A stretch of DNA of 64,000 bases from Sinohyriopsis cumingii. Taxonomy: Eukaryota; Mollusca; Bivalvia; Unionida; Unionidae. Under the pieces are notes generated by a model. The model did not search any database, was not told the origin of the DNA, and saw only the letters and a program-made list of their open reading frames with translations. A program made the position numbers and the translations under genes. Positions 2,099-16,815 of this stretch are shown in pieces. How positions within the stretch are numbered: the stretch's first letter is position 1; the number at the start of each line of letters is the position of its first letter. The DNA is taken from assembly GCA_028554795.2 (NCBI GenBank), contig CM068826.1:102426346-102490345 (forward strand). Reading direction: 5' to 3'.

Positions 2099-3211
2099 TC
2101 ACTTCTTCTTTTTATAGTCGATGACTTGCGAAGCGTCGATCCAAGAATCGAAACTGGGTGGATATCCTTTCCAACGTACTTTGACTTCTTTGACACGTCG
2201 TTTGCCCACTTTACGGGTTCTGCGTTCGAGAATGCTTTCGATGTCGTACACGTCGTCTTCTTTTTTGGTCACACGTTGTAACTCGGGCAAATAAAACGTT
2301 CCTTTGAGTACTTCTCCGTTCATGTCTTCCAATTTATAGACGGCAGGATGACGGCCATGCACTCGTCCAGTGACGCGAAACAATTCGGTCGTCCAGTTAG
2401 GTAAGTAACCTTTGTCGAAAGTGCGTTTGGTTTTGCCAATGCGCACCCAATCTCCTACGGTCAACTCTCCACTTTTCTTGGGGACAGCCCTCGTCGGGGA
2501 CGTACCGAACAGACGCTCAAACACCAGCACTTCGTTGTCGGGAGTCACGTCTTGCGGGGCACGTCCGATGCTTCGATGGTAAGATTGGTTGTACGCTTGC
2601 ACCAGGTGCGGTAAGATGTCGATGTACTTCAGAGTGTGGTGATGCGTAAAATATTTCCACATGCGTTCTTTCAAAGTGCGTTGAAAACGTTCCACGATGC
2701 TGGCTTTGGTTTCGGGATTCTCGGTGGTAAAAAAATGAATGTCACGTTTCTTTAATTCTTTTTGGAAAGCTTGGTTCAGAAATTCGGTGCCTTTGTCCGT
2801 TTGCCATCGAAGAGGGCGACGACCGCTTTGTTTCAACACCCTTTGCAGGGCTCGCACTAACTCGCTGCTCGATTTGGAAGTCAAGGGCACGACCCAGGCA
2901 AATTTGGAAAAGACGTCGATGACACAAAACAAATATTTGTAACCACGATTGTAGCTGGCCAAATGAGAGACATCGGCTAAATCGGCTTGCCATTGATGAT
3001 CGATGCCTTCCACTCGGGTGCGACTTCTGGCAAACTTGCGTCGAATGGGTTTGTGTAAAGTGTAGGTAGCTTGTTCTTGTAACCATCGTTGCACTTGAGG
3101 TAAACGGAGACTTTTCAGTCGCGTTTTGGCAGCACGATACAATTTTTGAACTCCTGCGTAACCTGCAGGATGCGAGGGATCGTAGTAAATGCTGGCTAAG
3201 ACTTTTTCCAT
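2099..3211 (-). CDS. Retroviral-type (DDE) integrase with C-terminal chromodomain
   Basis: The 370-residue protein contains the rve integrase core. The catalytic triad reads D77 (WQADLADV), D139 (WQTDKGTEF) and E174 (KASIVERF), with exactly 35 residues after D139 to the glutamate spacing, i.e. DD(35)E. Residues about 317-366 form a chromodomain (DVYDIESILERR, then VRWKGYPPSFDSWIDASQV), which in such integrases directs insertion towards particular chromatin marks. It cuts and joins the element ends to host DNA in the nucleus. ATG 3209-3211 follows the proline-rich gene by 12 nt. No frameshift or missing catalytic residue is seen, so it could be active. A decayed relative lies at about 25.16-26.0 kb. 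Confidence 0.95.
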   Translation of the reverse strand: MEKVLASIYYDPSHPAGYAGVQKLYRAAKTRLKSLRLPQVQRWLQEQATYTLHKPIRRKFARSRTRVEGIDHQWQADLADVSHLASYNRGYKYLFCVIDVFSKFAWVVPLTSKSSSELVRALQRVLKQSGRRPLRWQTDKGTEFLNQAFQKELKKRDIHFFTTENPETKASIVERFQRTLKERMWKYFTHHHTLKYIDILPHLVQAYNQSYHRSIGRAPQDVTPDNEVLVFERLFGTSPTRAVPKKSGELTVGDWVRIGKTKRTFDKGYLPNWTTELFRVTGRVHGRHPAVYKLEDMNGEVLKGTFYLPELQRVTKKEDDVYDIESILERRTRKVGKRRVKEVKVRWKGYPPSFDSWIDASQVIDYKKKK

Positions 3212-4436: not shown

Positions 4437-5388
4437 CTGGAACGCGTCGCGACTGATTGTCTTTACGTTTTATCAGTTTGAGGACAGGCATGACACGTCG
4501 TGCAGGGGTACGTAACGGACTAAATCGAGCCAGTTCTTGCTTGGACAAATCCAGTAAACTTTGTAACATGCCCGATCTTTCATGGACTTTGATTTTGGGA
4601 GAAGGTACTTTGTGAGCAGCAGCCACTGCCGCTAAATTGGAAGGTCCTGCCACTGGGGAAGTTCTTTTGGGGGTCATCAACGGAGAAGTTCTTGGTGTGA
4701 TCAACGTCTCCAAGTACTCTTCAGTTCCTGGTGACATCAACGGAGAAGTGGACAAACGTGAGGCTGCCGGAGACGCTGTGGCAGGTCGTGGCTTGCGAGT
4801 GTAAGGTTGCGTCCTGGCCGAAGTGCCTCTCTTGCGACTAGTTTTCTTCTTCTGTGGACTTTTCTTTTTCTGAGGACTTTTTCTCTGTTTCTTTTTCTGG
4901 GGGCTTCTTTTCTTTTTCCGGGGTGATGGTGGTGGTGTCTGGTAAGAGGAGGGTCCCGCCACTGGAGAAGTTATTCTTCTTGGGGACCTGGTCTTTTTCT
5001 TTTTCTTCTTGGGGCTTCGTTGGACTTTTGTCTTGGGGATAACTTTGGGGGCATTAGGATCCCATCTTAAGAGTGAGCGAATGATGACCCCTCCTAGAGT
5101 ACCGCTCCCTCCAGGTTTCAAAATGATTTGTTTTTTGGTTTGAGTGTCGATGTGGGGATCGGCCAGTTGGACCAAAGCGACTTTGTTTCGATCGAAAAAG
5201 CGTTGGGTTTGATGAGGAATCTGAATGATTCCTTGGAGTAATTGACGTGCCGTCACCGTGAACCATCGTAAGACTTCTTTGAGACTAGCTTCTAAGACAC
5301 GGGCTCGTGTTTGTGGATCTTTTTCTCGACTGATGCCATACAAGGCACGAATCAATTTGACGGGAAGATGCGACTGAAGGGACGTCAT
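4432..5388 (-). CDS. Basic core-like protein with helical N-domain and long Lys/Arg/Ser/Pro tail
   Basis: From ATG 5386-5388 the product has 318 residues (a GTG two codons earlier is ignored). Residues about 1-110 are helical, and their motif order follows the neighbouring pX-like protein: an ALYG.S segment, EASLKEVLRW, LLQGIIQIP, and KKQIILKPGGSGTLGG. The remainder is disordered and very basic, with repeated SPKKK, SPQKKK and SPRKKK modules and repeated TSPLMTP/TSPVAGPS phrases. This looks like adenovirus core proteins or histone H1-like tails and suggests DNA condensation in the particle. Many S/T-P sites would allow phosphorylation. The TATA box at 5427-5434 precedes it. The function is inferred from composition. 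Confidence 0.65.
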   Translation of the reverse strand: MTSLQSHLPVKLIRALYGISREKDPQTRARVLEASLKEVLRWFTVTARQLLQGIIQIPHQTQRFFDRNKVALVQLADPHIDTQTKKQIILKPGGSGTLGGVIIRSLLRWDPNAPKVIPKTKVQRSPKKKKKKTRSPRRITSPVAGPSSYQTPPPSPRKKKRSPQKKKQRKSPQKKKSPQKKKTSRKRGTSARTQPYTRKPRPATASPAASRLSTSPLMSPGTEEYLETLITPRTSPLMTPKRTSPVAGPSNLAAVAAAHKVPSPKIKVHERSGMLQSLLDLSKQELARFSPLRTPARRVMPVLKLIKRKDNQSRRVPV

Positions 5389-5442: not shown

Positions 5443-6180
5443 TCATGGGGAGTGAAATGAAGTCGAGGACGGAGACGTGTACAGAACAGGCCCTCCGTCT
5501 TGGCACCAGTGGTGAAACAAGTGGGTACGAAATCGCAAATCCTCGGGGGTCGTAGGTTTCAAATCGACGAGTAAATAGGCGTGTGGCGTTTGAGTGGCAT
5601 CGTCGTACGCCTGAGTCAGCCAAGGCGTTCCTAACTGTTTGGCTAAGACTTGCACTTGCGATTTATCTCGAGGGCTTTTAAACAAGACCACGTAATGCGC
5701 ATTGAGACTGATGGTGCGATGGGCTTTACTTTGTTGAAACAAATTTTGGGTGATGTAAACGACACTGGCATTACGGTGATGCCCTTTGCGCGTAAACCAC
5801 AATTTAATTTCTTCTTCGTCTTCTCCTAACATGTCGTCGAAAATGACCAAATGGGTTAGACGGGAGTCAGAGACGATGCCATCGTCTTCTTTAGGAATGC
5901 CTTCCACAAACACGATGGAATCGCCTTGACTTTCTCGCAAGAGGCTGTACGCCGATTGCCACTCTTTGTAACACCACACGATCCGTTGAGGGGGCCGATC
6001 GATCAAATGATGTTTATGTTCGATCAAACGTTTGACGAATTCGGTTTTGCCTGAACCGCTAGGTCCAGCAATGAGCATGTTAAAGGGATGGCGAAGATAC
6101 AAAGCCTCCCAACTGGCACGATCTAAGTGTTCGTCGATGACTTTGACAGTAGAGGGAGCAGAGACAGCAGAGGTAGCCAT
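5443..6180 (-). CDS. Genome-packaging ATPase (FtsK/HerA, A32-like)
   Basis: From ATG 6178-6180 the product has 245 residues; longer versions need a TTG. Walker A is GPSGSGKT at residues 39-46, Walker B LVIFDD at 111-116, and a sensor-type strand VVYITQNLF at 140-148. These define the packaging ATPase family shared by Polintons, virophages and large DNA viruses, which pumps DNA into preformed capsids. All motifs are intact and the length is typical. A TATA box lies at 6228-6235, 47 nt before the ATG. The stop is 54 bp from the next gene. The Pro/Ser-rich last 20 residues are outside the core fold. Confidence 0.93.
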   Translation of the reverse strand: MATSAVSAPSTVKVIDEHLDRASWEALYLRHPFNMLIAGPSGSGKTEFVKRLIEHKHHLIDRPPQRIVWCYKEWQSAYSLLRESQGDSIVFVEGIPKEDDGIVSDSRLTHLVIFDDMLGEDEEEIKLWFTRKGHHRNASVVYITQNLFQQSKAHRTISLNAHYVVLFKSPRDKSQVQVLAKQLGTPWLTQAYDDATQTPHAYLLVDLKPTTPEDLRFRTHLFHHWCQDGGPVLYTSPSSTSFHSP

Positions 6181-6227
6181 GGTATGAGAAATGTCACTTG
6201 TGACACGAAAAACAAACAAGACAAGAG

Positions 6228-6813: not shown

Positions 6814-7028
6814 GGAGGTGGTAAGTACTGATCGTAAAGAGTCCACAAAGAATCGGCTGGTAAACGAAATCCCAGAAAACAAGTCACTAAGACACACACC
6901 ACTTGTCGTCCCAAATTGAATGGATAAAGTTCTTGTAATAATCGATGGTAATGATCCACGGTTTGAATATGGTCATTGAGTTCCTTCCACGGAATCTGTT
7001 GAATGATATGTGACACAATCCGTGGCAT
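6804..7028 (-). CDS. Small helical ORF of unknown function (74 aa)
   Basis: The ATG at 7026-7028 opens a 74-residue frame rich in hydrophobic and aromatic residues (MPRIVSHIIQQIPWKELNDH, then a VVCVLVTCFLGF stretch). It overlaps the 3' end of the first F-box-like gene by 56 nt and the next ORF by 10 nt. A minus-strand TATAAAAT at 7038-7045 is only about 10 nt from the ATG. That is too close for a normal leader, so the box may serve the 6813 ORF instead. The hydrophobic segment faintly recalls a BH1-type helix but the spacing to a BH2-like segment is wrong. Function unknown. Confidence 0.35.
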   Translation of the reverse strand: MPRIVSHIIQQIPWKELNDHIQTVDHYHRLLQELYPFNLGRQVVCVLVTCFLGFRLPADSLWTLYDQYLPPPWP

Positions 7029-7500
7029 GGCAACTTGATTTTATAGTGTCTTTGTTTCGGAAGCAATAAAGGTAATTTCTAACCAAACACGTTCGTTCTC
7101 CAGTAGGGAATTTAAATGTTACATACTGTAACTGAAACGTCAGAGTTTGTCTAGATGTTTCGTCTTTTTCTAAGCAGATTCCATGTAACAAATGTTGGTA
7201 ATCCTTTAACTCGTCTTCCTCAATACGTTGCAGTAAGTGAATCTCCAAGTAACCAAAATTACGAACGTCTAGCCCATCATCATCATTCATATACTGAAAG
7301 TATTCAACAAGGTCTGACCAGTGAAAAAATTTCTGACGAATCAGTCCTCTTATACCATTCAGGTACCAGTGGTTAAAGATCTGGTGACGTAACGGATGCA
7401 ATTGTTCTTTACGTTTGACTTGTATTTTGACTAGCTCTCGGTAAATCCTTTCTCTCAACTCCTCAGGCAAGCCCAAAATGTACTCTTGTAAAGTATCCAT
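6973..7500 (-). CDS. F-box-like tandem family, copy A (175 aa)
   Basis: From ATG 7498-7500 the product starts MDTLQEYILGLPEELRERIY. The early segment LPEELRERIYRELVKIQV resembles the first helices of an F-box (LP.EL...I...L), which binds SKP1 in ubiquitin ligases; the match is short. The core then follows copy C: HPLR.Q/C.NHWYL, a GLI segment, FHW.D, an RIEEDELKDYQHL block and a region with T.KF. About 25 extra C-terminal residues run into the next ORF. Three such copies in a row suggest an expanding host-interaction gene family. A TATATAC string at about 7503-7510 lies too near the ATG to be a convincing promoter. Confidence 0.5.
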   Translation of the reverse strand: MDTLQEYILGLPEELRERIYRELVKIQVKRKEQLHPLRHQIFNHWYLNGIRGLIRQKFFHWSDLVEYFQYMNDDDGLDVRNFGYLEIHLLQRIEEDELKDYQHLLHGICLEKDETSRQTLTFQLQYVTFKFPTGERTCLVRNYLYCFRNKDTIKSSCHATDCVTYHSTDSVEGTQ

Positions 7501-7735
7501 AAGTATATACACTGTTTTTGGAATCGCTGGGTGGTAGCCAATAGCCTCGTCTAACTTTGTGCCTAATGTAATATCCACTCATAATCAGTCTTCTTGTACT
7601 TTGGAACAGAGCATAATTTAAAAACGGATGAATCACTTTGAGTTTACGTTTCACTTGTATTTTGACCAACTCTCGGTAAATGCGTTCTCTCAACTCCACA
7701 GGCAAAGCACGAATGTTCTCTTGTAAAGTATCCAT
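7463..7735 (-). pseudogene. F-box-like tandem family, copy B, truncated
   Basis: ATG 7733-7735 begins with the same 31 residues as copy C (MDTLQENIRALPVELRERIY and onwards to VKRK). Similarity fades after about 55 residues (LKVIHPFLNYALFQ compares with the HPLRHRCLNHWYL region), and the frame ends at residue 90 after unrelated sequence that crosses the start of copy A. It lacks the entire C-terminal half present in copies A and C. It most likely arose by tandem duplication followed by deletion, and the short protein may or may not be made. Confidence 0.55.
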
Positions 7736-7747
7736 GAATAGGTCATA

Positions 7748-8203
7748 CTAAATCCTCTTTGGTCTGACACAAGAAATGTACTCTTTGCACAAACATGGTT
7801 TCACTTCAGTGTCGAATTTAAATCGTTGAGTCACTAATCTACACATTACAATTCGTTCAGAAGTTTCCTCTTTCACCAAGTTGACATTGTGTGAAAGATG
7901 TTGGTAATTCGTTAACTCTTCCTCTGGAATTCGATGCAGTACGTTTACAATGATGTAACTACAATCGTCCATACCAAACCAATCCTTTTTAAAACTAGAG
8001 GATCGTTGATCAATGTCTGTCCAATGGAACACTTTCAATTGAATCAGTCCTTGTATAGCCTTCAGGTACCAGTGGTTCAAACACCGGTGACGTAACGGAT
8101 GCAATTGTTCTTTACGTTTCACTTGTATTTTGACCAGCTCTCGATAAATGCGTTCTCTCAACTCCACAGGCAAAGCACGAATGTTCTCTTGTAAAGTATC
8201 CAT
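7748..8203 (-). CDS. F-box-like tandem family, copy C (151 aa)
   Basis: From ATG 8201-8203 the product contains LPVELRERIYRELVKIQVKR at residues about 11-30 (F-box-like helices). It continues with a basic HPLRHRCLNHWYL segment, FHWTDID, and RIPEEELTNYQHL, then a Cys-containing C-terminus. It aligns along its length with copy A. The nucleotide sequence of the first ~110 bases is nearly identical to copy B, pointing to recent duplication. The stop lies 12 bp before copy B's ATG. No clear TATA box precedes it, so it may share the BIR gene's transcript. F-box function is inferred only from the short motif. Confidence 0.55.
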   Translation of the reverse strand: MDTLQENIRALPVELRERIYRELVKIQVKRKEQLHPLRHRCLNHWYLKAIQGLIQLKVFHWTDIDQRSSSFKKDWFGMDDCSYIIVNVLHRIPEEELTNYQHLSHNVNLVKEETSERIVMCRLVTQRFKFDTEVKPCLCKEYISCVRPKRI

Positions 8204-8232: not shown

Positions 8233-8970
8233 TCAATGTCTCGGTCCCACTAAAGGTAAGTAATGACAATTCGGTGACCATCGAGCATGTTCAACGTAGG
8301 CCGAATCTTGCGGTTCCCAGTGGTGAAATGACACACCACAACTGAAGCACTTGACTTTATCTCCTTCGCCCAAGTAGAAAAATCCGGCTCTGGCTAATTC
8401 TTCGGGGGTCGGTCCTCCCAGATACTTAGGCCATTTTCCTTTGAACGATTGAAGGCGATTTTCAAAGTCGCAGTATTCCGACAAACGCACAGGGAACGAA
8501 TATTCGTTTTTCACAGGTTCGTTTCGATGAGGGTTGGGTGACAGGAACAGGAGTTTGCTCAGGGCTGGATGACATCCGTAGGGGGGTAGACGTGAAGGTG
8601 AACATTCCCCTTTAAACCCGATAAAATGTCTAAAAGGACGAGCGGCATCGCTTTCGCATCCCTCAGGTTTGACACGCACAGCATCACTTTCCATGACAGG
8701 GGCAGTGAGAACAAAGTTCCCATGATGCTTTACGGCATCGCTCAGGTCACAAGGTACAGCATCGTATCCATCGCAAGGCTCACAATCGCACTCATCTGCA
8801 AACTCCGTTACGCAATTACAATGGTAACCACATGGACAATCGCAGTTTCCTTCCGGACATTTTCCGTCGCAATGCATGGGTCTTATCCATCCAGTATTAG
8901 TCACACTAGAGGAAGATACAACTTTTTTACAATCCCCAAACTGGAACGATGTCTCTTTCAAAGTATTCAT
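8233..8970 (-). CDS. BIR-domain inhibitor-of-apoptosis-like protein
   Basis: The 245-residue protein has one C-terminal BIR domain (residues about 162-241). It contains a central AGFFYLGEGDKVKCFSCG and the zinc ligands C208, C211, H228 and C235, giving the canonical C-x2-C-x16-H-x6-C spacing. Such domains bind caspases or IAP-binding motifs and block cell death. The N-terminus is unusual: a cysteine-dense cluster at residues 34-66 (about ten Cys, with CPEGNCDCPCGYHCNC), perhaps a second metal-binding module. No RING finger is present. A good TATA box lies at 9026-9036, inside the end of the polymerase gene. A host gene captured by a virus-like element is the likely origin. Confidence 0.88.
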   Translation of the reverse strand: MNTLKETSFQFGDCKKVVSSSSVTNTGWIRPMHCDGKCPEGNCDCPCGYHCNCVTEFADECDCEPCDGYDAVPCDLSDAVKHHGNFVLTAPVMESDAVRVKPEGCESDAARPFRHFIGFKGECSPSRLPPYGCHPALSKLLFLSPNPHRNEPVKNEYSFPVRLSEYCDFENRLQSFKGKWPKYLGGPTPEELARAGFFYLGEGDKVKCFSCGVSFHHWEPQDSAYVEHARWSPNCHYLPLVGPRH

Positions 8971-9015: not shown

Positions 9016-9762
9016 CTAGGGTTCCTTTTTTATATACAGACCAATACCAACGTGACCGTACGGTAAGGTGAAATGATTGGGAAGTCTCACTCGCTTCTGG
9101 TACACGATTTGATAGACTTTTTCCAAGGGTCGACTGACGATGTGGTGAGTGGGTAAACGTACAATCTTGTTCGGTTGATAGGTGGTCACTTTAAAGTTTC
9201 CATCCTCTCCCGATTGCAAGGCTTCTTTCAATACCCCAAAGTTGACCACTCGACTGGTACGATAATTCAGAGTCAGTCCTTTCACTTTGCACGTCGTGTG
9301 CACTTCTCCTTGTTTGTCACGGTATTCGTAGCCGTAATTTTTGGGACCGCCACTGACAAAACTTAGAATCTTGTCGTCGGGATGCTCGTCTGTCCAGGCT
9401 CCTAAACGGTCTCCTTCGATGTTAGGGTGATGTTGAATCGGATGATGGATGTAAATGCAACTGTCTGTGTCAAAGTACAGGACGCGTTCTTCTAACAGTT
9501 CTAAAGCTTCGTACAATTTTAAGCGAGCATGAGCTGTCACGTAAGCCGCAATGATGACATTTCCAAAAGGGTCGTCTTGTACAAAGTCCAGATCTTCTTC
9601 GTAATTGACCAAGATCAAATTCTCTCGAACGACGTCCACGTGTTTCATGTATTTGGTTTTGTCGTGAATCATCTGGAAGTAGCGGGAAGGTTCTGTCAAA
9701 TATTCCGTCTTGGGTAAACACGGTCGTTGTGCCATTTTACCCCACAAGCAATTTAACATCAC
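9016..9762 (-). CDS. polB: DNA polymerase B, C-terminal part (motifs B and C), separated by a frameshift
   Basis: This 248-residue open stretch is the C-terminal continuation of the polymerase upstream, in a different frame. It begins at the motif B core (MLNCLWGKM) and carries the catalytic motif C YFDTDS, with the two metal-binding aspartates at local residues 98 and 100 (about 9463-9471). After that comes the usual thumb region. The nominal first codon at 9762 is GTG, not a true start; homologous sequence continues upstream in this frame to the break near 9,815-9,828. All residues expected for polymerisation are present across the two pieces. Confidence 0.9.
   Translation of the reverse strand: MMLNCLWGKMAQRPCLPKTEYLTEPSRYFQMIHDKTKYMKHVDVVRENLILVNYEEDLDFVQDDPFGNVIIAAYVTAHARLKLYEALELLEERVLYFDTDSCIYIHHPIQHHPNIEGDRLGAWTDEHPDDKILSFVSGGPKNYGYEYRDKQGEVHTTCKVKGLTLNYRTSRVVNFGVLKEALQSGEDGNFKVTTYQPNKIVRLPTHHIVSRPLEKVYQIVYQKRVRLPNHFTLPYGHVGIGLYIKKEP
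9026..9036 (-). promoter_or_regulatory. TATA box (TATATAAAAAA) for the BIR gene, inside the polymerase coding end
   Basis: The minus-strand TATATAAAAAAGG lies 55 nt upstream of ATG 8970 and overlaps the last codons of the DNA polymerase (YIKK). It therefore has both coding and promoter roles. Confidence 0.75.
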
Positions 9763-9803: not shown

Positions 9804-12800
9804 CTAAAGTGATACCTTCTTGTTCTTATATTTCTCTTTGAATTGTATTTGGTCTTCGGGAGTGTGACACCAGGAAGGATAGCCGCTGGCTTCTTGCTTC
9901 AGTTTCAAAAAGGCATCCACGTAGTCGGCGAAAATGCCTTTCTGCCTGGGGTCACCCTTGCGGTATTGTTGTGTCTTGGGAAAGTGGCAAATTTCGTACA
10001 CTTCTAACAGTTGGTATCCCATGTCCAGAGCTTTGAACAATTCTACGCTGACCCAGGTTCCCGTCAAGGCCCGTTCTTCCTGGCTGTGCTGACAAGGTTG
10101 ATCTTGGTTGCACGTTTCGGCACAAGTACGGCACAAGGGAAACATCAGTTTGCCTTGACAATGGTGAGGTAAGACGGGATGGTATAGGTTCGTGGGAGGC
10201 AAAACTTTGCACTTGATCAAGCCTTCGTATTGTCGAATGTTTTTCAGGTCGATGTGTTCCGTCAGCAATTGCGGGTGCCCTACAGGAAAGCGACAATATT
10301 TACACACGTAGGGATACAGCGAACACACATCCAAGTATTTGATTTCTTCTCCTTTCTTTTCGTCGGCTTGGTACAGCAAACAGGTGGCATTGGTCCTTCC
10401 TCCGTACAAACTATCCCTCGGGTTCAGCGGGTCCATGAACTGGTAACTTTCCACGAGGCGTTTAAACTCGGGATCGGTTTTCATACGGTGATCGTACTCG
10501 TGTTCCCACATTTCCACCACTTGGTATCCTTGCTGTTCTAACTTTAGGCGTCGCTGACAAGTGTCCTGGTACAAGTCTTCCATGGTTCGTTGCAAAAACT
10601 GATTTTTAGTGCCACGGTCAGGGTAACAGACGGGACATCCGTGAAATAAGCAACCGTTAAACTCGTACACGATCTTGGGGTTTTCTAAGTCCCAGCCATC
10701 GACCGAATACGTTCCAATGGTCTTTTCGCCTCCTCCGTTGCGGGCATGCTGAATCCATTTGTCTTCCTTGTCGCACAAGTAATGTAACCAACGTAGGGCT
10801 TTGACCGAGTATTGACGCTTGACATAGTGGGTCGTTTGAGGACTGATGACAGCCACGGTGTTTTCAGGCATGAATCGTTGGCGGTACACTAAGGAACACG
10901 CTTTGGCAATGGTGCAAGCTTCTTTCAAAGGATCGACCCCTCCGTGTTCCATGAACAGTTCTCGAAATTTTCCACAGCAACGCCGTAAAATGTCCACGTC
11001 GGAACGACAATACTTTAGCATTTCTTCCTGAAAGTCGAAAGGGTCCGAGGCGTGAATCTGGTACCAAGCGTAGAAAGCTTCTCGTTGTTCGGTACGCATG
11101 TTGTCGGGGTCGTAATAGTGAACCTCAGGCAAATGGGGTAGAACAGCATGTTGATTGGCTTCCGTATTGAAAAAGTGTGGAAAGTACCCTTTAGCCATTT
11201 CTGTCATTCCAAACGTTTTAGGCATTCGACTCAAAGGCATGGCCAAGTAACTCATCGAATCTTTAAACTGCACTTGTCCCACTTGCATGAAAATGATTTT
11301 GGCTCCGTTCAAAGTGACTTTAGGACGTTCGGTGCCATGTTCCGTATAGTATCTGAGAAGAAACTGTCCATCGTATCCGGAGAAATTGTGAGCCATCACC
11401 GTGGCATGACGATGACAATCTCCGTAACGTTCGATGTCCTCTTGGCTCCACGTCTTGTCGATGGGGTCTAAGACCCATTGGGCAAAATCGGCTAACGTGT
11501 TTGGTCCCCGAAAGATTTTTTCACGCCCTCCGGGAATCTTGCTGCAGTGAGGGCAATGACTGAAGATAGGTTCTTGAATGCACTTCTCGCACGCTCGATG
11601 AGCCACGCAGAAATTAGGAATGTGAATGCCAGTCTCTTGCATGCATTCGAAATCGAAAAAGATGAAATTGCTTTTCTTCTTGTGACCGTCCTCTTTCTCT
11701 GGTGGGGGTTGGTATTTTTGCACGTAGCATTGGTGTTCCAAGTCCACGATGTGGAGACAAATGTGACATTTTTTCTTTCCTCGACATACGTGTGCCTTGG
11801 CAGCATTGGTACATATGACTTGTTCACACGTAGGGCACAATCTCAGGAGTTGACAAGCACATTTCTTCTGTGAACCTTGCGTTTTCAGATGTTGTTGGTA
11901 ACAGATAGGGCTGACAAACGTGCGCAGACAAGTGGAACAAGGCACTGGTTCTTCGCTCAGACAGGGTGAAGAGGCCAAACATCCTGAGCATTTCAATCCA
12001 CAATGCTTGTGTTGCTCTCGATTATTATAACCATGGTCACATTTCTCACAGTAATAACCGTATCCCAGAAATCCGGTGATACTGGTAATCGTATCGAAAT
12101 GGTCATCGTGATGATAAACATGAATGTATTTTCCGTCCTTAAAATCTTGGCCTCGAAACAATAGAGGTCCGCGCATTTCTTGAGGGTGCACTTTCATGGT
12201 GTATCGTGGAGCTAGGACATCTTGCAATTTTTGCATCTCAGGAATGCCGCAGGGTGTGTCTTTGGGCAGTCCGGCTTGTTGTAACAGGAGTTCTGCTTCG
12301 TTTCGTTGTTTGGCTCGGTCGGAACGTTGAATAGTGTCCCAGGTTCTTTTCCATTCTACCGTGTCGTTCTTGTTGGCATAGGTTCGTCCCACCACGATGG
12401 CACGGGCTAAACACATCTGGTCTTGAGGGTTGTTAATTCGGACGAGACTTGTTTTGGTGTTGCGAAGGTCGTCTACCAATAACATCTTTTTGCGTCCAGT
12501 CCCTTGAGGAGGAGAAACGTGGGTCATGTCCAGTGTGGCTTTTCCATCGGTGATGTCAAACTGGTCATTAGATTGTTGCACGTGTTGAATTTTGTCCATG
12601 ACTTTGGAAGCAGTCAATTCTGCAGGGGTGCTAAACTCGATCCAAACAGGGGATTTCAAACCGTCGTGTTGTATGGAAAGTCTCAAGCGATCGTCTTCTT
12701 TGGGTTGACATTGTCGCTTGAGTGCAGTGAGCAAAGAATCCCACACCTCAGTGATGAACACTTCTGCTTTCTCTAACGGCACTTCAGCCTTGAAATCTTT

Positions 12801-13064
12801 AAACTTCACCGTGTATTTGTAAGCCGTGGTTCTAAATTTTCTAGAGGAGCGCTTTTCCGTCTCTCGAATGGAATAGTACTTTTCAGGGTTGACAAAGGGT
12901 GGTGAACTTGGTTTAGAGGGTTCGGATTCTGGTTCACTCATGTCCTCTTCAAAATCACTGGCATGAATTTGTGCCAAGATTTCAGCCCTGGTACGAGGCG
13001 ATAGATCACGTTTCTGCCTCTTACTTTCTTCTTCTTTCTTCTCGAATGAATGGGATCGTTTCAT
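9804..13064 (-). CDS. polB: DNA polymerase B, main part: N-terminal domain, zinc clusters, exonuclease, motif A
   Basis: The 1,086-residue frame starts at ATG 13062-13064. In order it shows: a basic/acidic leader; the Polinton-specific N-terminal domain (SLVRINNPQDQMCLARAIVV at about 209-228); several Cys/His clusters (residues about 336-450); and Exo I (FFDFECM, D471/E473), Exo II (HNFSGYD, N560/D565) and Exo III (YCRSDVD, Y685/D689). A YEFNGCLFHGCPVCY block is followed by motif A DVCSLYP (D912). It stops at TAG 9804-9806 just before motif B because of a one-base shift near 9,815-9,828. The enzyme would replicate the element, probably by protein priming as in its family. A TATA box at 13112-13118 drives it. 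Confidence 0.95.
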   Translation of the reverse strand: MKRSHSFEKKEEESKRQKRDLSPRTRAEILAQIHASDFEEDMSEPESEPSKPSSPPFVNPEKYYSIRETEKRSSRKFRTTAYKYTVKFKDFKAEVPLEKAEVFITEVWDSLLTALKRQCQPKEDDRLRLSIQHDGLKSPVWIEFSTPAELTASKVMDKIQHVQQSNDQFDITDGKATLDMTHVSPPQGTGRKKMLLVDDLRNTKTSLVRINNPQDQMCLARAIVVGRTYANKNDTVEWKRTWDTIQRSDRAKQRNEAELLLQQAGLPKDTPCGIPEMQKLQDVLAPRYTMKVHPQEMRGPLLFRGQDFKDGKYIHVYHHDDHFDTITSITGFLGYGYYCEKCDHGYNNREQHKHCGLKCSGCLASSPCLSEEPVPCSTCLRTFVSPICYQQHLKTQGSQKKCACQLLRLCPTCEQVICTNAAKAHVCRGKKKCHICLHIVDLEHQCYVQKYQPPPEKEDGHKKKSNFIFFDFECMQETGIHIPNFCVAHRACEKCIQEPIFSHCPHCSKIPGGREKIFRGPNTLADFAQWVLDPIDKTWSQEDIERYGDCHRHATVMAHNFSGYDGQFLLRYYTEHGTERPKVTLNGAKIIFMQVGQVQFKDSMSYLAMPLSRMPKTFGMTEMAKGYFPHFFNTEANQHAVLPHLPEVHYYDPDNMRTEQREAFYAWYQIHASDPFDFQEEMLKYCRSDVDILRRCCGKFRELFMEHGGVDPLKEACTIAKACSLVYRQRFMPENTVAVISPQTTHYVKRQYSVKALRWLHYLCDKEDKWIQHARNGGGEKTIGTYSVDGWDLENPKIVYEFNGCLFHGCPVCYPDRGTKNQFLQRTMEDLYQDTCQRRLKLEQQGYQVVEMWEHEYDHRMKTDPEFKRLVESYQFMDPLNPRDSLYGGRTNATCLLYQADEKKGEEIKYLDVCSLYPYVCKYCRFPVGHPQLLTEHIDLKNIRQYEGLIKCKVLPPTNLYHPVLPHHCQGKLMFPLCRTCAETCNQDQPCQHSQEERALTGTWVSVELFKALDMGYQLLEVYEICHFPKTQQYRKGDPRQKGIFADYVDAFLKLKQEASGYPSWCHTPEDQIQFKEKYKNKKVSL

Positions 13065-13198
13065 CTTGAAAGCAAAAAGTCAAATGACTCAAGTTCAAAC
13101 ACCATAAACTACTTTATAGTCATAGCAGACCAGCGTATATAAAAGGGTGTGTGTCTTGTCCTTTCACTATTCATTTCACTCTCAAGCCGAACACAACG
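13065..13198. promoter_or_regulatory. Bidirectional TATA promoter between the polymerase (-) and zinc-knuckle (+) genes
   Basis: In 134 bp there are two outward-facing TATA boxes. TATAAAG on the minus strand at 13112-13118 lies 47 nt from the polymerase ATG. TATATAAAAG on the plus strand at 13136-13145 lies 53 nt from ATG 13199. Only 17 bp separate them, so upstream elements must be shared or overlap each other's start region. Confidence 0.8.
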
Positions 13199-13672
13199 AT
13201 GGAAGAGACTGACCAGATGGAACGTTTCGTCAGAGCTTTGCGAGGGGTCATTAGAAAATTCTCTTCAGACCAGCCTACGGACTACTCTCCTTCCTTTAGA
13301 GATAAAAGTCAAGATACTTGCTATATCTGTCAGAAGAAAGGGCATTGGTCTTCAGAGTGTCCAGACCGTCAAAAAAGAAAAAAAACAGGGGATAAAAAAG
13401 ACAAAAGTCAAGATACCTGTTATTATTGTAAAGAAAAAGGACATTGGTCTCCAGATTGCCCAAAAAAGAAACAAGAGGAGTCAGAAGAAAAGAGGAATTC
13501 TTCAGAAGAAGAGAGGGATTCTTCAGAGGAAGAGAGGGATTCTTCTGAGGAAGAAAGAAGACAGGTGAAGAAAAAGAAACAAGAGAAAAAAAGAAGAAGG
13601 GAAGAAAGCGAGGAGGAAGAAGAAGAGGAAAAGAGTGTGACGGTGAAGAAATTCAAAAAACAGAGAGACTAA
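13199..13672 (+). CDS. Zinc-knuckle (two CCHC) protein with acidic/basic low-complexity tail
   Basis: From ATG 13199 the product is 157 residues (frames starting at 13151 use a GTG). Two CCHC knuckles, CYICQKKGHWSSEC (41-54) and CYYCKEKGHWSPDC (74-87), sit in an internal duplication visible at DNA level (about 13,302-13,363 and 13,400-13,461). They resemble retroviral nucleocapsid knuckles, which bind single-stranded nucleic acid. The tail has three tandem SSEEER units (about 21 bp each) and long Lys/Arg and Glu runs. It is the only gene of the inner region on the plus strand, sharing a promoter with the polymerase, and ends with an ordinary AATAAA at 13751. A nucleic-acid-binding early role is plausible but not shown. 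Confidence 0.8.
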   Translation: MEETDQMERFVRALRGVIRKFSSDQPTDYSPSFRDKSQDTCYICQKKGHWSSECPDRQKRKKTGDKKDKSQDTCYYCKEKGHWSPDCPKKKQEESEEKRNSSEEERDSSEEERDSSEEERRQVKKKKQEKKRRREESEEEEEEEKSVTVKKFKKQRD

Positions 13673-13891: not shown

Positions 13892-13945
13892 TATTTCTTT
13901 TCGAGAAATGTGGGTGGCCCTGAAAAGGGCCTTTTTTCTTTATGG
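13892..13945 (-). terminator. Histone-type mRNA 3' end (stem-loop plus purine-rich downstream element), minus strand
   Basis: On the minus strand the sequence is GGCCCTTTTCAGGGCC (13916-13931): a perfect 6-bp stem with a TTTC loop. It is preceded by an A-rich AAAGAAAAAA flank and followed by ACCCACATTTC. About 13 nt after the stem comes a purine-rich CGAAAAGAAAT. This fits the replication-dependent histone 3' end, where SLBP binds the loop, cleavage follows an ACCCA-like site, and U7 snRNA pairs with the purine element. It sits 27 nt after the stop codon of the 192-residue ORF, a normal histone distance. Confidence 0.85.
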
Positions 13946-13958
13946 TGCAGGGGTGAGT

Positions 13959-14537
13959 TTAACCAATCAATTTTAACTGCCTTATGCCTTTGCCACGGCC
14001 AAGGCCTACTTCTGGACTGCGTAATGATGATAATGATTGGGTTGAAATCACTAAGGGTGGTACGGTAGGCTTAGTCACAGGGTTGACGTGTTTGGCTCGG
14101 GAAGGTCGTATTCTCTTCGGTCGTAATAAAGAAGTCTGATACATTTGTTTCAGACTTCTTAACTCCGCTAAAATGTCCAACAGTACCGTGACCGTTTGAT
14201 TTTCACCCTCTTGTTTCTTTGCTGCTACTACTTCTTCTTGCTGTTGCTGCTGTTGTTTTTTTCTTACCTCTTCTTCTTGCTGCTGTTGCTGTAGGAGAAA
14301 AACTTGTTCGGCTTCCTTTTGTCGTTGTATAAATTTCTCCAATTCTTCTTTCTGTCTCTGTCTAAAATTCTCCACTTGCGGTAATGAAGAAGGTAACGAA
14401 GGTTCCGGAACAAATTCTTGCGAGGAGAGAAAATCCACAAAATCCCAATTCACCTCTTCTGAAAGTAAGTCCGAGTTCCCTTGGGCGGTCTCCCCTGCTG
14501 GTGCACCCCAATGGATCGTTTTCTGAGTTTCCGTCAT
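13959..14537 (-). CDS. Glutamine-rich coiled-coil protein, outermost minus-strand gene, histone-type 3' end
   Basis: From ATG 14535-14537 the product is 192 residues. The N-terminal 50 are acidic. Residues about 55-105 are a Gln/Glu/Lys-rich predicted coiled coil with runs such as QQQQQEEEVRKKQQQQQQ (partly a CTG/TTC-type microsatellite). The segment VTVLLDILAELRSLKQMY may be a second coil. The C-terminus is basic (RPKRIRPSRAKH) and ends in GLGRGKGIRQLKLIG. No family is recognised. It shares a divergent promoter with the plus-strand ORF at 14757 and ends at a histone-like stem-loop 27 nt after its TAA, which predicts S-phase-limited, non-polyadenylated mRNA. It is not a histone: no histone fold is visible. 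Confidence 0.65.
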   Translation of the reverse strand: MTETQKTIHWGAPAGETAQGNSDLLSEEVNWDFVDFLSSQEFVPEPSLPSSLPQVENFRQRQKEELEKFIQRQKEAEQVFLLQQQQQEEEVRKKQQQQQQEEVVAAKKQEGENQTVTVLLDILAELRSLKQMYQTSLLRPKRIRPSRAKHVNPVTKPTVPPLVISTQSLSSLRSPEVGLGRGKGIRQLKLIG

Positions 14538-14756
14538 GTTGAATCACTGTCGCATAGATTGACTGCACACAAGCGCTAGCGAATCTATATTGACTACGTG
14601 ACGTCACAGACTGCTCTCTTCGGATTGGATGCGGGCTGACTGAATTCTGTAACGCGTGTTCGGATTGGTGAATGAACTCAATCCGTTTCAATCCTTTCTG
14701 TCCCTATAAATAAGCGCCGTTCACTGCATTGATTCACCTATTCTCGGAGCCTCAAC
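14538..14756. promoter_or_regulatory. Divergent histone-like promoter: CRE palindrome, two CCAAT boxes, TATA boxes
   Basis: Between two divergent ORFs there is TGACGTCA at 14599-14606 (CRE/ATF palindrome). Two inverted CCAAT boxes (ATTGG) lie at 14624-14628 and 14664-14668, each within a repeated TTCGGATTGG. TATAAATA lies at 14705-14712, 44 nt before ATG 14757. An AT-rich AATATAGAT on the minus strand near 14584-14592 lies about 47 nt before ATG 14537. Paired CCAAT boxes in a divergent spacer resemble metazoan H2A-H2B promoters. Together with the histone-type 3' ends this suggests S-phase control; promoter function is inferred. Confidence 0.7.
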
Positions 14757-14987
14757 ATGTGGACAGACGTTGAATCTTCAACCCTTGTGTCAACAATGAT
14801 GTTCAGGACGGACATGCTCATGTATGTCCGATCCAAGTGGACCGTTTTCCACAGGACCAACAGCAGCCTGTGGATAAGAAGAGTCTATATAGAGAGACAA
14901 GGTTGCCTCAAGAGGACTCTGATGTATGGCCCTGCTGTAAGACGAAGTTTGAGGACAAGAAGATGTCGCAAATGCCCTTTATGTTAA
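14757..14987 (+). CDS. Small Arg-rich ORF (76 aa) with histone-type 3' end
   Basis: ATG 14757 is the first ATG after TATAAATA and opens 76 codons. The N-terminal half is Met/Thr-rich. The C-terminal half is basic, with SLRTRRCRKCPLC at the end, loosely protamine-like. The TAA at 14985 lies 22 nt before a histone-like stem-loop. Caution: an alternative frame is open from 14774 to 14998 (75 codons) and reads as a more ordinary polar protein with a VWPCCKTKFEDKK segment, but it has no ATG. A short upstream exon, a frameshift or decay could have hidden its start. No family is recognised in either frame. Transcription is better supported than the exact product. Confidence 0.45.
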   Translation: MWTDVESSTLVSTMMFRTDMLMYVRSKWTVFHRTNSSLWIRRVYIERQGCLKRTLMYGPAVRRSLRTRRCRKCPLC

Positions 14988-15002
14988 GGGCATATTAACA
15001 TA
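14968..15002 (+). repeat. Overlapping inverted repeats just before the plus-strand histone-type stem-loop
   Basis: ATGCCCTTTATGTTAAGGGCAT can fold as a GCCCTT/AAGGGC hairpin, and TTATGTTAA is repeated inverted as TTAACATAA a few bases later. The two folds are mutually exclusive. They lie between the ORF end and the histone-like stem-loop and could affect SLBP access or simply reflect duplication. Confidence 0.5.
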
Positions 15003-15050
15003 AACCAAAGGCCCTTTTCAGGGCCAGCCATATTTCTCGAAAAGAGATAG
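15003..15050 (+). terminator. Histone-type mRNA 3' end (stem-loop plus purine-rich downstream element), plus strand
   Basis: AACCAAA precedes GGCCCTTTTCAGGGCC (15010-15025), a perfect 6-bp stem and TTTC loop. Then comes AGCCATATTTC and a purine-rich CGAAAAGAGATAG. The CCAAA-stem-loop-purine order is the textbook histone 3' end layout. The stem and loop are identical to the minus-strand copy at 13916-13931, and the following ATTTCTCGAAAAGA is also shared. It lies 22 nt after the 76-codon ORF and 11 nt after the alternative frame's stop. Confidence 0.87.
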
Positions 15051-15096
15051 TCTTTGAATTGCCTACCCCTTTTTTTAAAAATTTAAAAAAAAAAAA

Positions 15097-15271
15097 ATCC
15101 CATGTTAAATTCCCCTTGTCCGTAGATTGTCCCACGATTTATTCCCATGTTAAATTCCCCTTGTCCGTAGAGTGTCCCACGATTTTTCGCCATGTTAAAT
15201 TTCCATTGTCCGTAGAGTGTCCCAAGGGTGTTTTTAATGCTAATTCCCATTGTCCGTAGGGTATCCCTATT
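15097..15271. repeat. Four subterminal tandem repeats of about 45 bp at the element's right end
   Basis: Units on the minus strand begin GGGACACTCTACGGACAA (with variants GGGACAATCT and GGGATACCCT) and contain GGGAATTTAACATGGG or a close variant. Starts are near 15,271, 15,226, 15,181 and 15,136, a period of 44-45 bp. The outermost copy is most divergent. Short tandem repeats next to the terminal inverted repeat are common in Polintons and may bind a terminal protein or polymerase. Beyond this point the sequence turns AT-rich and gene-poor, so I take it as the element boundary. Confidence 0.8.
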
Positions 15272-16815
15272 CACTACTTGCAAATCATCAAATGGAAGTA
15301 TGTTGGTCCCAATATTATATACAACAAGGAATAAAATGTTAATATTATAGAAGTTAAGGCGCAAATATTGGGGTTAAATATTGTGTTCTGCAGGAAAGTC
15401 ATGTCATACAATCTTGACTTAACGGAACACTTCAAGCTTAGTTCTATCACATAGTCAGTGGAACTTGTCATTCAACCAAGATTCAACATGAAATCATTTT
15501 ATGAAGATTGTTCATTAACTTTGTTTTCTGTAGCATATTAACAACTTTCATTGTAAATGTTGCTTTAAAGGTATCCATCAAGAATATTATGTGATGGTTT
15601 CTCCACTTCGTTTTCATCCTTCTCTCCCATATTTATGGAATCCAGAGTTCGTGAACCTCAATCTCTTTCCACCATTCTCTATCCTCAGCATTGTGGTACC
15701 TGGATTGAACAGCATTTTTGTCTGAACCCAACTATCGTTACACAGACGACCGACTAGAATATACAATCCGTTATCTTCATGCTTATCAGCTGTGACATTG
15801 CCACATTTTGTTTTCTTAATTTGATTGATGTTAATTTATCGGCTTCTTTTGTGTCATACCTTACAGCACATTGTATATGCGATCTCGTACAGTTCGCTGT
15901 GGTGAATTAAAACGGGCTTGATCTTGTGAAAACAAAAGGTTTGTTTTCATTTAACGCTTCCAAGTATTTCATAGGATGACTGTTGATTAGTCCTGGAACT
16001 GCTGTCCCTCTTTCTGCCCCATTTTTAACTGTAGTCAAGGTTTTCCGTAGCCTTTTCTCCACTTTAGTTAGATCATTTTTAGTAGCCGTGTCTATAAGTG
16101 TTCATTCTCTAGTGTTCATTTTAGAACCTTCACTGGCACGACACCAGTTGAAACGTCAAAGCTACCACAATTACTGAAAGTTCAACCTAATATTGTCTGA
16201 CTGCGTCATTCTGTGTGGAGGATATGATGGACTAGTACGGGAAGGAGCAGTGAATTGACGGATCCATCATTTGTCGTCTTCACTCTTCTATCAATAGATT
16301 AAAAGAACAACTGTGCCGCCAGATCTCCCTGTGCATAAAATAAACCAATACAGTATGGACACCGGTCACAGTTGCCAGATTTGAAGTTCTCCCATGTCGA
16401 CCGATAACGCGCTTCCGGTCGTCTCTACTACCCCTTTTTATCATGTCACAGTTGTGGATGTAATTGGCTATATTCCTGAGTTTATCTTGGAGCTCGTTCT
16501 CTTTCACCTCTTGCACATTTCGGGGACTGTCAGCGGCCCCATCCTCCTCTGTACTGATTCATAACAGGTAAATCGAACTAATATATTTGCAATTGATTTC
16601 GCAACTTTAGGAGTTATTTTTGTATTTAGTCGGTTTGTTGACATTCGCTCTGTTTGATTCGGACATTTAATTGGATTATATGTCATTCAAGGGTGCTGTC
16701 TTAGTTTTCTATGAAGTCTTGGACTTTGGATATTCATCTCGTGTAGGATAGCCAGTTTAAGCCAATACGGTATATCATCTGAAGCAAAAGAGTCGTTCGA
16801 TTATGAACCGAAGTC
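15272..16815. other. AT-rich host flank without recognisable genes
   Basis: I see no coding signal, RNA gene or known mobile element. Open frames here are short and unsupported. Confidence 0.6.

Follow-up and report, generated by a model that had tools for sequence, protein, structure and literature searches.

Histone-type 3' ends on the accessory genes of a Polinton from the bivalve Sinohyriopsis cumingii

The stretch of DNA analyzed here (the window) comprises 64,000 nucleotides (nt) of the genome of Sinohyriopsis cumingii (assembly GCA_028554795.2, contig CM068826.1, positions 102,426,346 to 102,490,345, forward strand). It contains the right-hand part of a Polinton, a virus-like mobile element of 20,021 bp that runs from position 5258 of the sequence to the left of the window (L031) to window position 15278 and ends in AGTAGT/ACTACT. 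Two divergent accessory genes, R192 and R76, lie at its right end, and each is followed by a signal of the type found at the 3' ends of histone mRNAs (Table 1). An earlier note on this DNA had described these as both outermost genes of the element. R76 is indeed outermost, but both genes lie at the right end, where they diverge from each other, and do not mark one end each.

In the known pathway, the stem-loop of a histone pre-mRNA binds SLBP and a downstream element pairs with U7; cleavage then gives an mRNA without poly(A), the production of which is linked to S phase (PMC9756948, PMC5011920). Animals otherwise reserve the stem-loop signal for histone messages. The two signals in the window are the sole Rfam matches there that reach the cut-off of any family, which for Histone3 (RF00032) is 34 bits. 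Both contain the same 16-nt core, GGCCCTTTTCAGGGCC, with an A-rich 5' flank and ACCCA or AGCCA on the 3' side of the stem, and in both of them AAAAGA lies approximately 14 nt beyond the stem. With scores of 41.2 and 35.6 bits, the stem-loops, flanks and purine-rich elements that the earlier note had picked out by reading are confirmed. The distance from stop codon to stem is 27 nt for R192 and 22 nt for R76, within the 20–30 nt it had given. Compared with shuffled sequences, the folds have z = -3.97 (R192) and -4.05 (R76), and 0 of 200 shuffles fold as well. A chance origin of the stem-loops was rejected on the Rfam E-values, these folding controls and the conservation described below.

As the earlier note had stated, neither gene encodes a histone. 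No Pfam match better than E 0.1 was obtained for either open reading frame (ORF), and none for R76 even at E 1; R192 has no PHROGs match at E 0.1. Pfam showed no histone in the two window ORFs, and none of 75 Histone3 loci in the host genome gave a histone match. The structure model of R192 is a long helix with a mean predicted local distance difference test (pLDDT) score of 67.9, and that of R76 is poor (60.9). R192 has 20 homologues in short public contigs, of which 19 were used in the alignment (A1; P0020 was left out). A single public homologue, with 64% identity, was found for R76. The promoter region shared by the two genes contains, by eye, CTATAAATAAG ahead of the plus-strand gene, TGACGTCA and two ATTGG motifs (inverted CCAAT). 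It is 91% identical to the window across 18 right ends (0.912).

The left end of the element, in L031, holds three further stem-loops. All three are on the minus strand, and at this end that strand points outward. This copy has five stem-loops, three that pass the Rfam cut-off and two below it. In four terminal genes (R192, R76, left-127 and left-102), less than 30 nt separate the stop codon from a stem-loop, and no AATAAA or ATTAAA occurs within 300 nt downstream of any of the four. The remaining stem-loop, the third on the left, lies 3' of what is probably a gene, which an in-frame stop interrupts in this copy. The two core units close with genes that have AATAAA at +79 (zinc knuckle) and at +111 (protease-like, minus-strand unit), and neither gene has a stem-loop. 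The element therefore has two classes of gene ends: accessory genes have a stem-loop without AATAAA, and core-unit ends have AATAAA without a stem-loop. The two internal gene units on the left (L031 5990-6330 and 6770-7150) share promoter-side and 3' sequence by eye, like a duplicated cassette of gene plus stem-loop.

Table 1. Features of the Polinton and of a distant relative (window coordinates unless L031 or L081 is given; TIR, terminal inverted repeat; TSD, target-site duplication; aa, amino acids)
Feature	Position	Strand	Basis or remark
Histone-type 3' signal of R192	13892..13936	-	Rfam RF00032 Histone3, 41.2 bits, E 9.6e-9
Stem-loop core of R192 signal	13916-13931
Purine-rich downstream element of R192 signal	13896-13901		AAAAGA
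Histone-type 3' signal of R76	15005..15050	+	RF00032, 35.6 bits, E 1.2e-6; within right TIR
Stem-loop core of R76 signal	15010-15025
Purine-rich element of R76 signal	15040-15047		AAAAGAGA
Accessory gene R192, 192 aa	13959..14537	-	ORF; coiled coil, helix 53-137 in model
Accessory gene R76, 76 aa, outermost right gene	14757..14987	+	ORF; basic (by eye)
Shared divergent promoter region of R192 and R76	14538..14756		Motifs read by eye
Left stem-loop 1, inside left TIR	L031 5573-5528	-	35.6 bits
Left stem-loop 2	L031 6378-6333	-	31.0 bits, E 1e-5
Left stem-loop 3	L031 7206-7161	-	31.0 bits, E 1e-5
Left-127 ORF	L031 5588-5971		Stem-loop (5573-5528) 19 nt past it
Left-102 ORF	L031 6400-6708		Stem-loop (6378-6333) 26 nt past it
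Histone3 match in L081	L081 8335-8380	+	35.8 bits, E 7.9e-7
Right TIR, ~45-nt tandem units, terminates ACTACT	15002..15278		86% match to L031 5576-5257
TSD TGCAAA, 6 bp	15279..15284 and L031 5252-5257		Identical 6 bp on both sides
Zinc-knuckle gene, core-unit end without stem-loop	13199..13672	+	Pfam zf-CCHC on longer ORF 13151-13672
DNA polymerase B (PolB), organellar/viral type, main part	9804..13064	-	Pfam PF03175, E 1.5e-36
PolB C-terminal part, separate ORF	9016-9762		Position and motif
BIR-domain (inhibitor of apoptosis-like) gene	8233..8970	-	Pfam PF00653, E 4.7e-23
Packaging-type ATPase	5443..6219	-	Pfam Pox_A32, E 1.5e-7
Integrase, rve and chromodomain	2099..3211	-	Pfam; 35% identity to L081 integrase

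The histone genes of the host lie in tandem units of approximately 8.3 kb (114 H4 matches, mostly on other contigs). In one such unit (L095), H4, H2B, H2A, H1 and H3 are each followed by a Histone3 stem-loop scoring 35.0-39.4 bits. The 16-nt core of host H2B is identical to that of the element; H4, H3 and H2A have a different loop, and H1 departs from it at one stem pair. As downstream element, H4, H2B, H1 and H3 have TAGAAAAGA and H2A has CCGAAAAGG; the Polinton has TCGAAAAGAGA, TCGAAAAGAAA or CTAGAAAAGA. The Polinton version is purine-rich, lies at a fixed distance and resembles that of the host genes. When approximately 60 nt are compared, the five stem-loops in this copy agree with host ends at 39-48 positions (about 64-80%). 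The closest pair is R192 with H2A (48/60), and the likeness extends past the downstream element. From these resemblances, it is likely, although not proved, that the signal was captured from a host histone gene. Hexamers (AATAAA or ATTAAA) are found 36 and 91 nt after the stem start in H4, 222 nt after it in H2B and 41 nt before it in H2A, and the absence of a poly(A) signal is thus not a strict feature of histone 3' ends. In another bivalve, Lucina pectinata, histone mRNAs are described with the stem-loop near the stop codon and with purine-rich elements in some genes only (PMC6210712).

Uptake of an entire histone gene, promoter included, was also considered and rejected: when the right end was compared by blastn with one host unit, histone 3' ends alone were matched (H2B best, at 82% over 57 nt, and H2A, H3 and H4 too), all other matches being low complexity or chance. 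Nearby host histone genes, or insertion of the element into a histone cluster, were rejected as well, as H4 lies mostly in tandem units elsewhere and none of the 75 Histone3 loci has a histone ORF. The element thus shares stem-loop, flanks, spacing, purine-rich element and short stop-to-stem distance with replication-dependent histone genes. It differs from them in that its genes encode no histone and sit in a mobile element dispersed through the genome.

The position of some stem-loops allows a different reading: as a DNA element, the hairpin would serve the TIRs in replication, packaging or transposition, and would resemble histone ends only secondarily. Each TIR does hold one stem-loop, the two being identical in the window copy, but three of the five stem-loops lie outside the TIRs, and those tested are in sense orientation directly past the stop codon of a gene. 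The loop, the single-stranded flanks and the downstream purine element are conserved and match those of host histone genes. A DNA hairpin would need none of these, and we consider this explanation quite improbable.

A Histone3 search of the host genome (2.9 Gb) scored 75 of 589,472 first-look candidates, all 75 above the cut-off. Every one is an end of this Polinton family, and none (0/75) has a histone ORF within approximately 1.5 kb. The 75 loci were picked by stem-loop score and do not rank the matches of the genome, and the set misses the two stem-loops of the window as well as those of the host histone genes; 75/75 therefore means that the element family is a main source of such matches, and not that histone genes are without stem-loops. 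A second Histone3 match (E <= 0.5) is present in 27 of the 30 loci scanned with Rfam. A sense stem-loop within 150 nt past the stop codon follows R192 in 49/49 copies in which the C-terminus was reached (two were dropped), R76 in 52/52 and left-102 in 20/20. By contrast, the zinc-knuckle and protease-like genes are followed by one in 1/52 and 0/1 copies. No antisense placement was seen among the copies scored for gene-end stem-loops. Searching by pattern, with at most five mismatches to two templates, gave 156 stem-loops in 77 sequences. Six pairs are kept in 139 of these, the loop is TTTC in 151, and pair 1 is A-U in place of G-C in 24; the purine element begins 13-14 nt after the stem in 149/156.

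A protein search with the zinc-knuckle gene scored 150 copies out of 61,453 candidates, all with 99-100% identity, thus suggesting a very recent expansion of the Polinton. Ten copies located through this gene have 20/20 stem-loops present, 19 of them perfect and one with a G-U pair. In near-identical copies (L096-L115), the sequence that separates R76 from its stem-loop exists in two or more versions. The synonymous divergence from the window copy is 0.91 for R76 as compared with 0.12 for the adjoining R192. These two observations indicate mosaic right ends, which probably arose by recombination.

Choosing loci by stem-loop score introduces a bias, and conservation was therefore counted on stem-loops that had not selected their locus. 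In these unselected copies, the R76 stem-loop core shows 19 pairwise differences in 3040 (0.6%), and the fourfold sites of the adjacent R76 frame show 839 in 2941 (28.5%). The stem core thus differs approximately 45 times less often. The comparison used the 20 of 23 unselected copies with a full frame, three being left out for length or a stop. Across the 18 right ends, a set biased by its stem-loop-based choice, identity is 1.000 for the R76 core and 0.797 for the ORF. The signal is under strong selection, at least after R76. The stem-loop, its spacing and the downstream element also match those of host histone 3' ends, and this match and the conservation support the reading of the earlier note that these are histone signals.

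The genes themselves are also constrained. Ratios of nonsynonymous to synonymous divergence (dN/dS) against the window or L031 copy are 0.12 for R76 (52 copies), 0.41 for R192 (49 copies), 0.18 for left-102 and 0.33 for the zinc knuckle (left-127 was left out). This bears on the idea that the stem-loops are decoys, which would draw SLBP and U7 off host histone mRNAs and alter the cell cycle or chromatin while the proteins are incidental. The abundance of the element, with five stem-loops in the window copy and 150 scored near-identical copies of a neighbouring gene, would suit a decoy. Selection on the linked ORFs (dN/dS 0.12 to 0.41) and the placement of the stem-loops directly past gene ends speak against it, and we regard it as very improbable indeed.

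It could also be that captured histone 3' ends have become passive terminators and that mature mRNAs arise from transcripts that read through to cryptic poly(A) sites, or that either pathway can be taken. Human H2AC18 pre-mRNA can go either way (PMC9756948), and the likeness of element and host 3' ends over approximately 60 nt includes sequence beyond the downstream element. Against this stand the absence of AATAAA and ATTAAA within 300 nt after the four genes and the approximately 45-fold deficit of differences in the R76 stem core relative to fourfold sites. We consider passive terminators improbable.

Histone-type ends are not confined to the Sinohyriopsis element. A PolB profile (A3), built from 27 of 120 listed relatives and the window PolB, found six Polinton-like contigs (L077-L082) in bacterial and archaeal genome records, where they are presumably contamination. 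One of them, L081, is 36% identical to the window element in PolB, 35% in the integrase and 33% in the capsid-like protein. It carries a Histone3 match with the core GGCCCTTATCAGGGCC and the loop TATC, 28 nt after a gene for an 89-aa C2H2 zinc-finger protein and facing the contig end. Downstream of this stem-loop are AAAAGAGA and then repeats (by eye). The zinc-finger protein shows no likeness to R76. The histone-type signal thus recurs in a distant Polinton behind an unrelated gene. The earlier note would have given up its proposal had the stem-loops been absent from all related elements; they are present in one of the six distant contigs, and the proposal stands. The R192 homologue P0013 continues past the usual end of the protein, and by eye its extra residues are a translated stem-loop and downstream element; this is protein sequence only and weak evidence. 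Two contigs of the viral collection found with a third stem-loop pattern were discarded as they have no stem.

Taken together, the element is best read as a Polinton that is young, present in many copies and endowed with mRNAs of two classes, in which the accessory genes have histone-type ends that are processed by host SLBP and U7. We put the probability of this at about 0.83. The arrangement suggests that the element expresses the genes at its edges through the histone pathway of the host, which is linked to DNA replication. In the proposed mechanism, the core genes (polymerase, ATPase, integrase, capsid-like, protease-like and zinc knuckle) would be expressed from units ending at an ordinary AATAAA. 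Short accessory genes in both terminal regions would instead rely on a signal, probably taken from a host histone gene, tens of nt past the stop codon: a 6-bp stem, a UUUC loop, an ACCCA-type cleavage region and a purine-rich element approximately 14 nt downstream. Host SLBP and the U7 small nuclear ribonucleoprotein would cleave the transcripts after the stem-loop, and the accessory genes most likely yield mRNAs without poly(A). S phase would be the main period in which such mRNAs are stable and translated. The accessory genes would in that case be expressed in step with host DNA replication, at a time when the element has access to nucleotides and replication factors.

Several observations weigh against processing by the host pathway. 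Two of the left stem-loops score 31.0 bits, below the cut-off of 34 bits. Left-127 is followed by a stem-loop in just 19 of 33 matches; the 14 misses appear to be low-complexity cross-matches, and those listed sit at the E/K-rich zinc-knuckle gene. The pattern search that gave the 156 stem-loops favours intact ones. The R192 signal is less constrained than that of R76: among the 26 unselected copies, 20 keep six pairs, and the core sites, 416 in all, carry 11 changes, as compared with the R192 synonymous divergence of 0.12; in the 18 right ends its core (0.949) is little above the R192 ORF (0.929). Five of the six distant PolB contigs showed no stem-loop, all six being shorter (3.6-12 kb) than a whole element. 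No relative was found in the viral collection with the integrase, the R192 family, the PolB profile or two stem-loop patterns. The U7 RNA of the host was not found with the Rfam U7 model, which matched no genome, including 14 controls.

The element is a Polinton, as the earlier note also had it. It has PolB, integrase, ATPase, capsid-like and weakly protease-like genes, TIRs with AGT-repeat ends and a 6-bp TSD. By Pfam, its genes include a viral-type PolB, an rve integrase with chromodomain, a packaging ATPase, a BIR gene and the zinc-knuckle gene. Among solved structures, the integrase matches retroviral integrases and chromobox proteins, which has no bearing on the stem-loops. The protease-like gene in L031 matches Peptidase_C5 at E 0.0084 and 16.2 bits, below the family cut-off of 21.3. 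The capsid-like protein in L031 (260 aa) is 33% identical to a 428-aa protein of L081, which itself has no Pfam match and is named from its position and size. The named relatives of PolB are mostly from oysters and other bivalves, then from echinoderms and a few others, among 120 listed of 2021, and by themselves point to a bivalve as the probable host. The Polinton-borne BIR gene may have an anti-apoptosis role. Window positions 6973-8203 hold three related tandem ORFs (MDTLQE...) that are locally 82-95% alike.

According to PMC8097293, Mavericks/Polintons are accompanied by 6-bp duplications, carry a motif of repeated AGT at their ends and have accessory regions that flank the core. The main text of that paper contains the words "histone", "stem-loop" and "polyadenyl" 0 times each. 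The present element has PolB, the rve-chromo integrase, the ATPase, AGTAGT ends, the 6-bp TSD and flanking accessory regions in common with Polintons/Mavericks, and probably also the capsid-like and protease-like genes. It differs in the histone-type 3' ends of its accessory genes. Its core gene set is probably also that of the adintoviruses, the proposed virus form of Polintons. Viral histone genes are carried by bracoviruses. Histone-like genes are reported from adomaviruses and a tailtomavirus (PMC11071296), in a main text that contains "stem-loop" and "hairpin" 0 times. Among the titles and abstract openings listed from the open-access literature searched, none describes histone-type 3' ends for a Polinton, an adintovirus or any other viral gene, in agreement with the earlier note, which knew of no description in Polintons.

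Polinton-type elements and histone-type signals are each known, and to our knowledge their union is not. If the reading is true, this would be the first case known to us of a mobile or viral element that turns the only animal mRNA pathway to do without poly(A) to the expression of genes other than histones. Small DNA tumour viruses link themselves to the host cell cycle by other means. The accessory genes of this element would be linked to it as well, and those near the Polinton ends would be licensed by DNA replication. It is an even bet whether animal Polintons in general have such an old and widespread second class of genes near their ends, licensed by replication through SLBP/U7, with capsid and polymerase using poly(A). 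Transcripts of this kind would escape poly(A)-selected RNA-seq. Mobile-element genes that encode no histone and have complete histone-type 3' ends would break with the restriction of this signal to histone messages and would offer a natural system for studying the roles of the stem-loop apart from histones.

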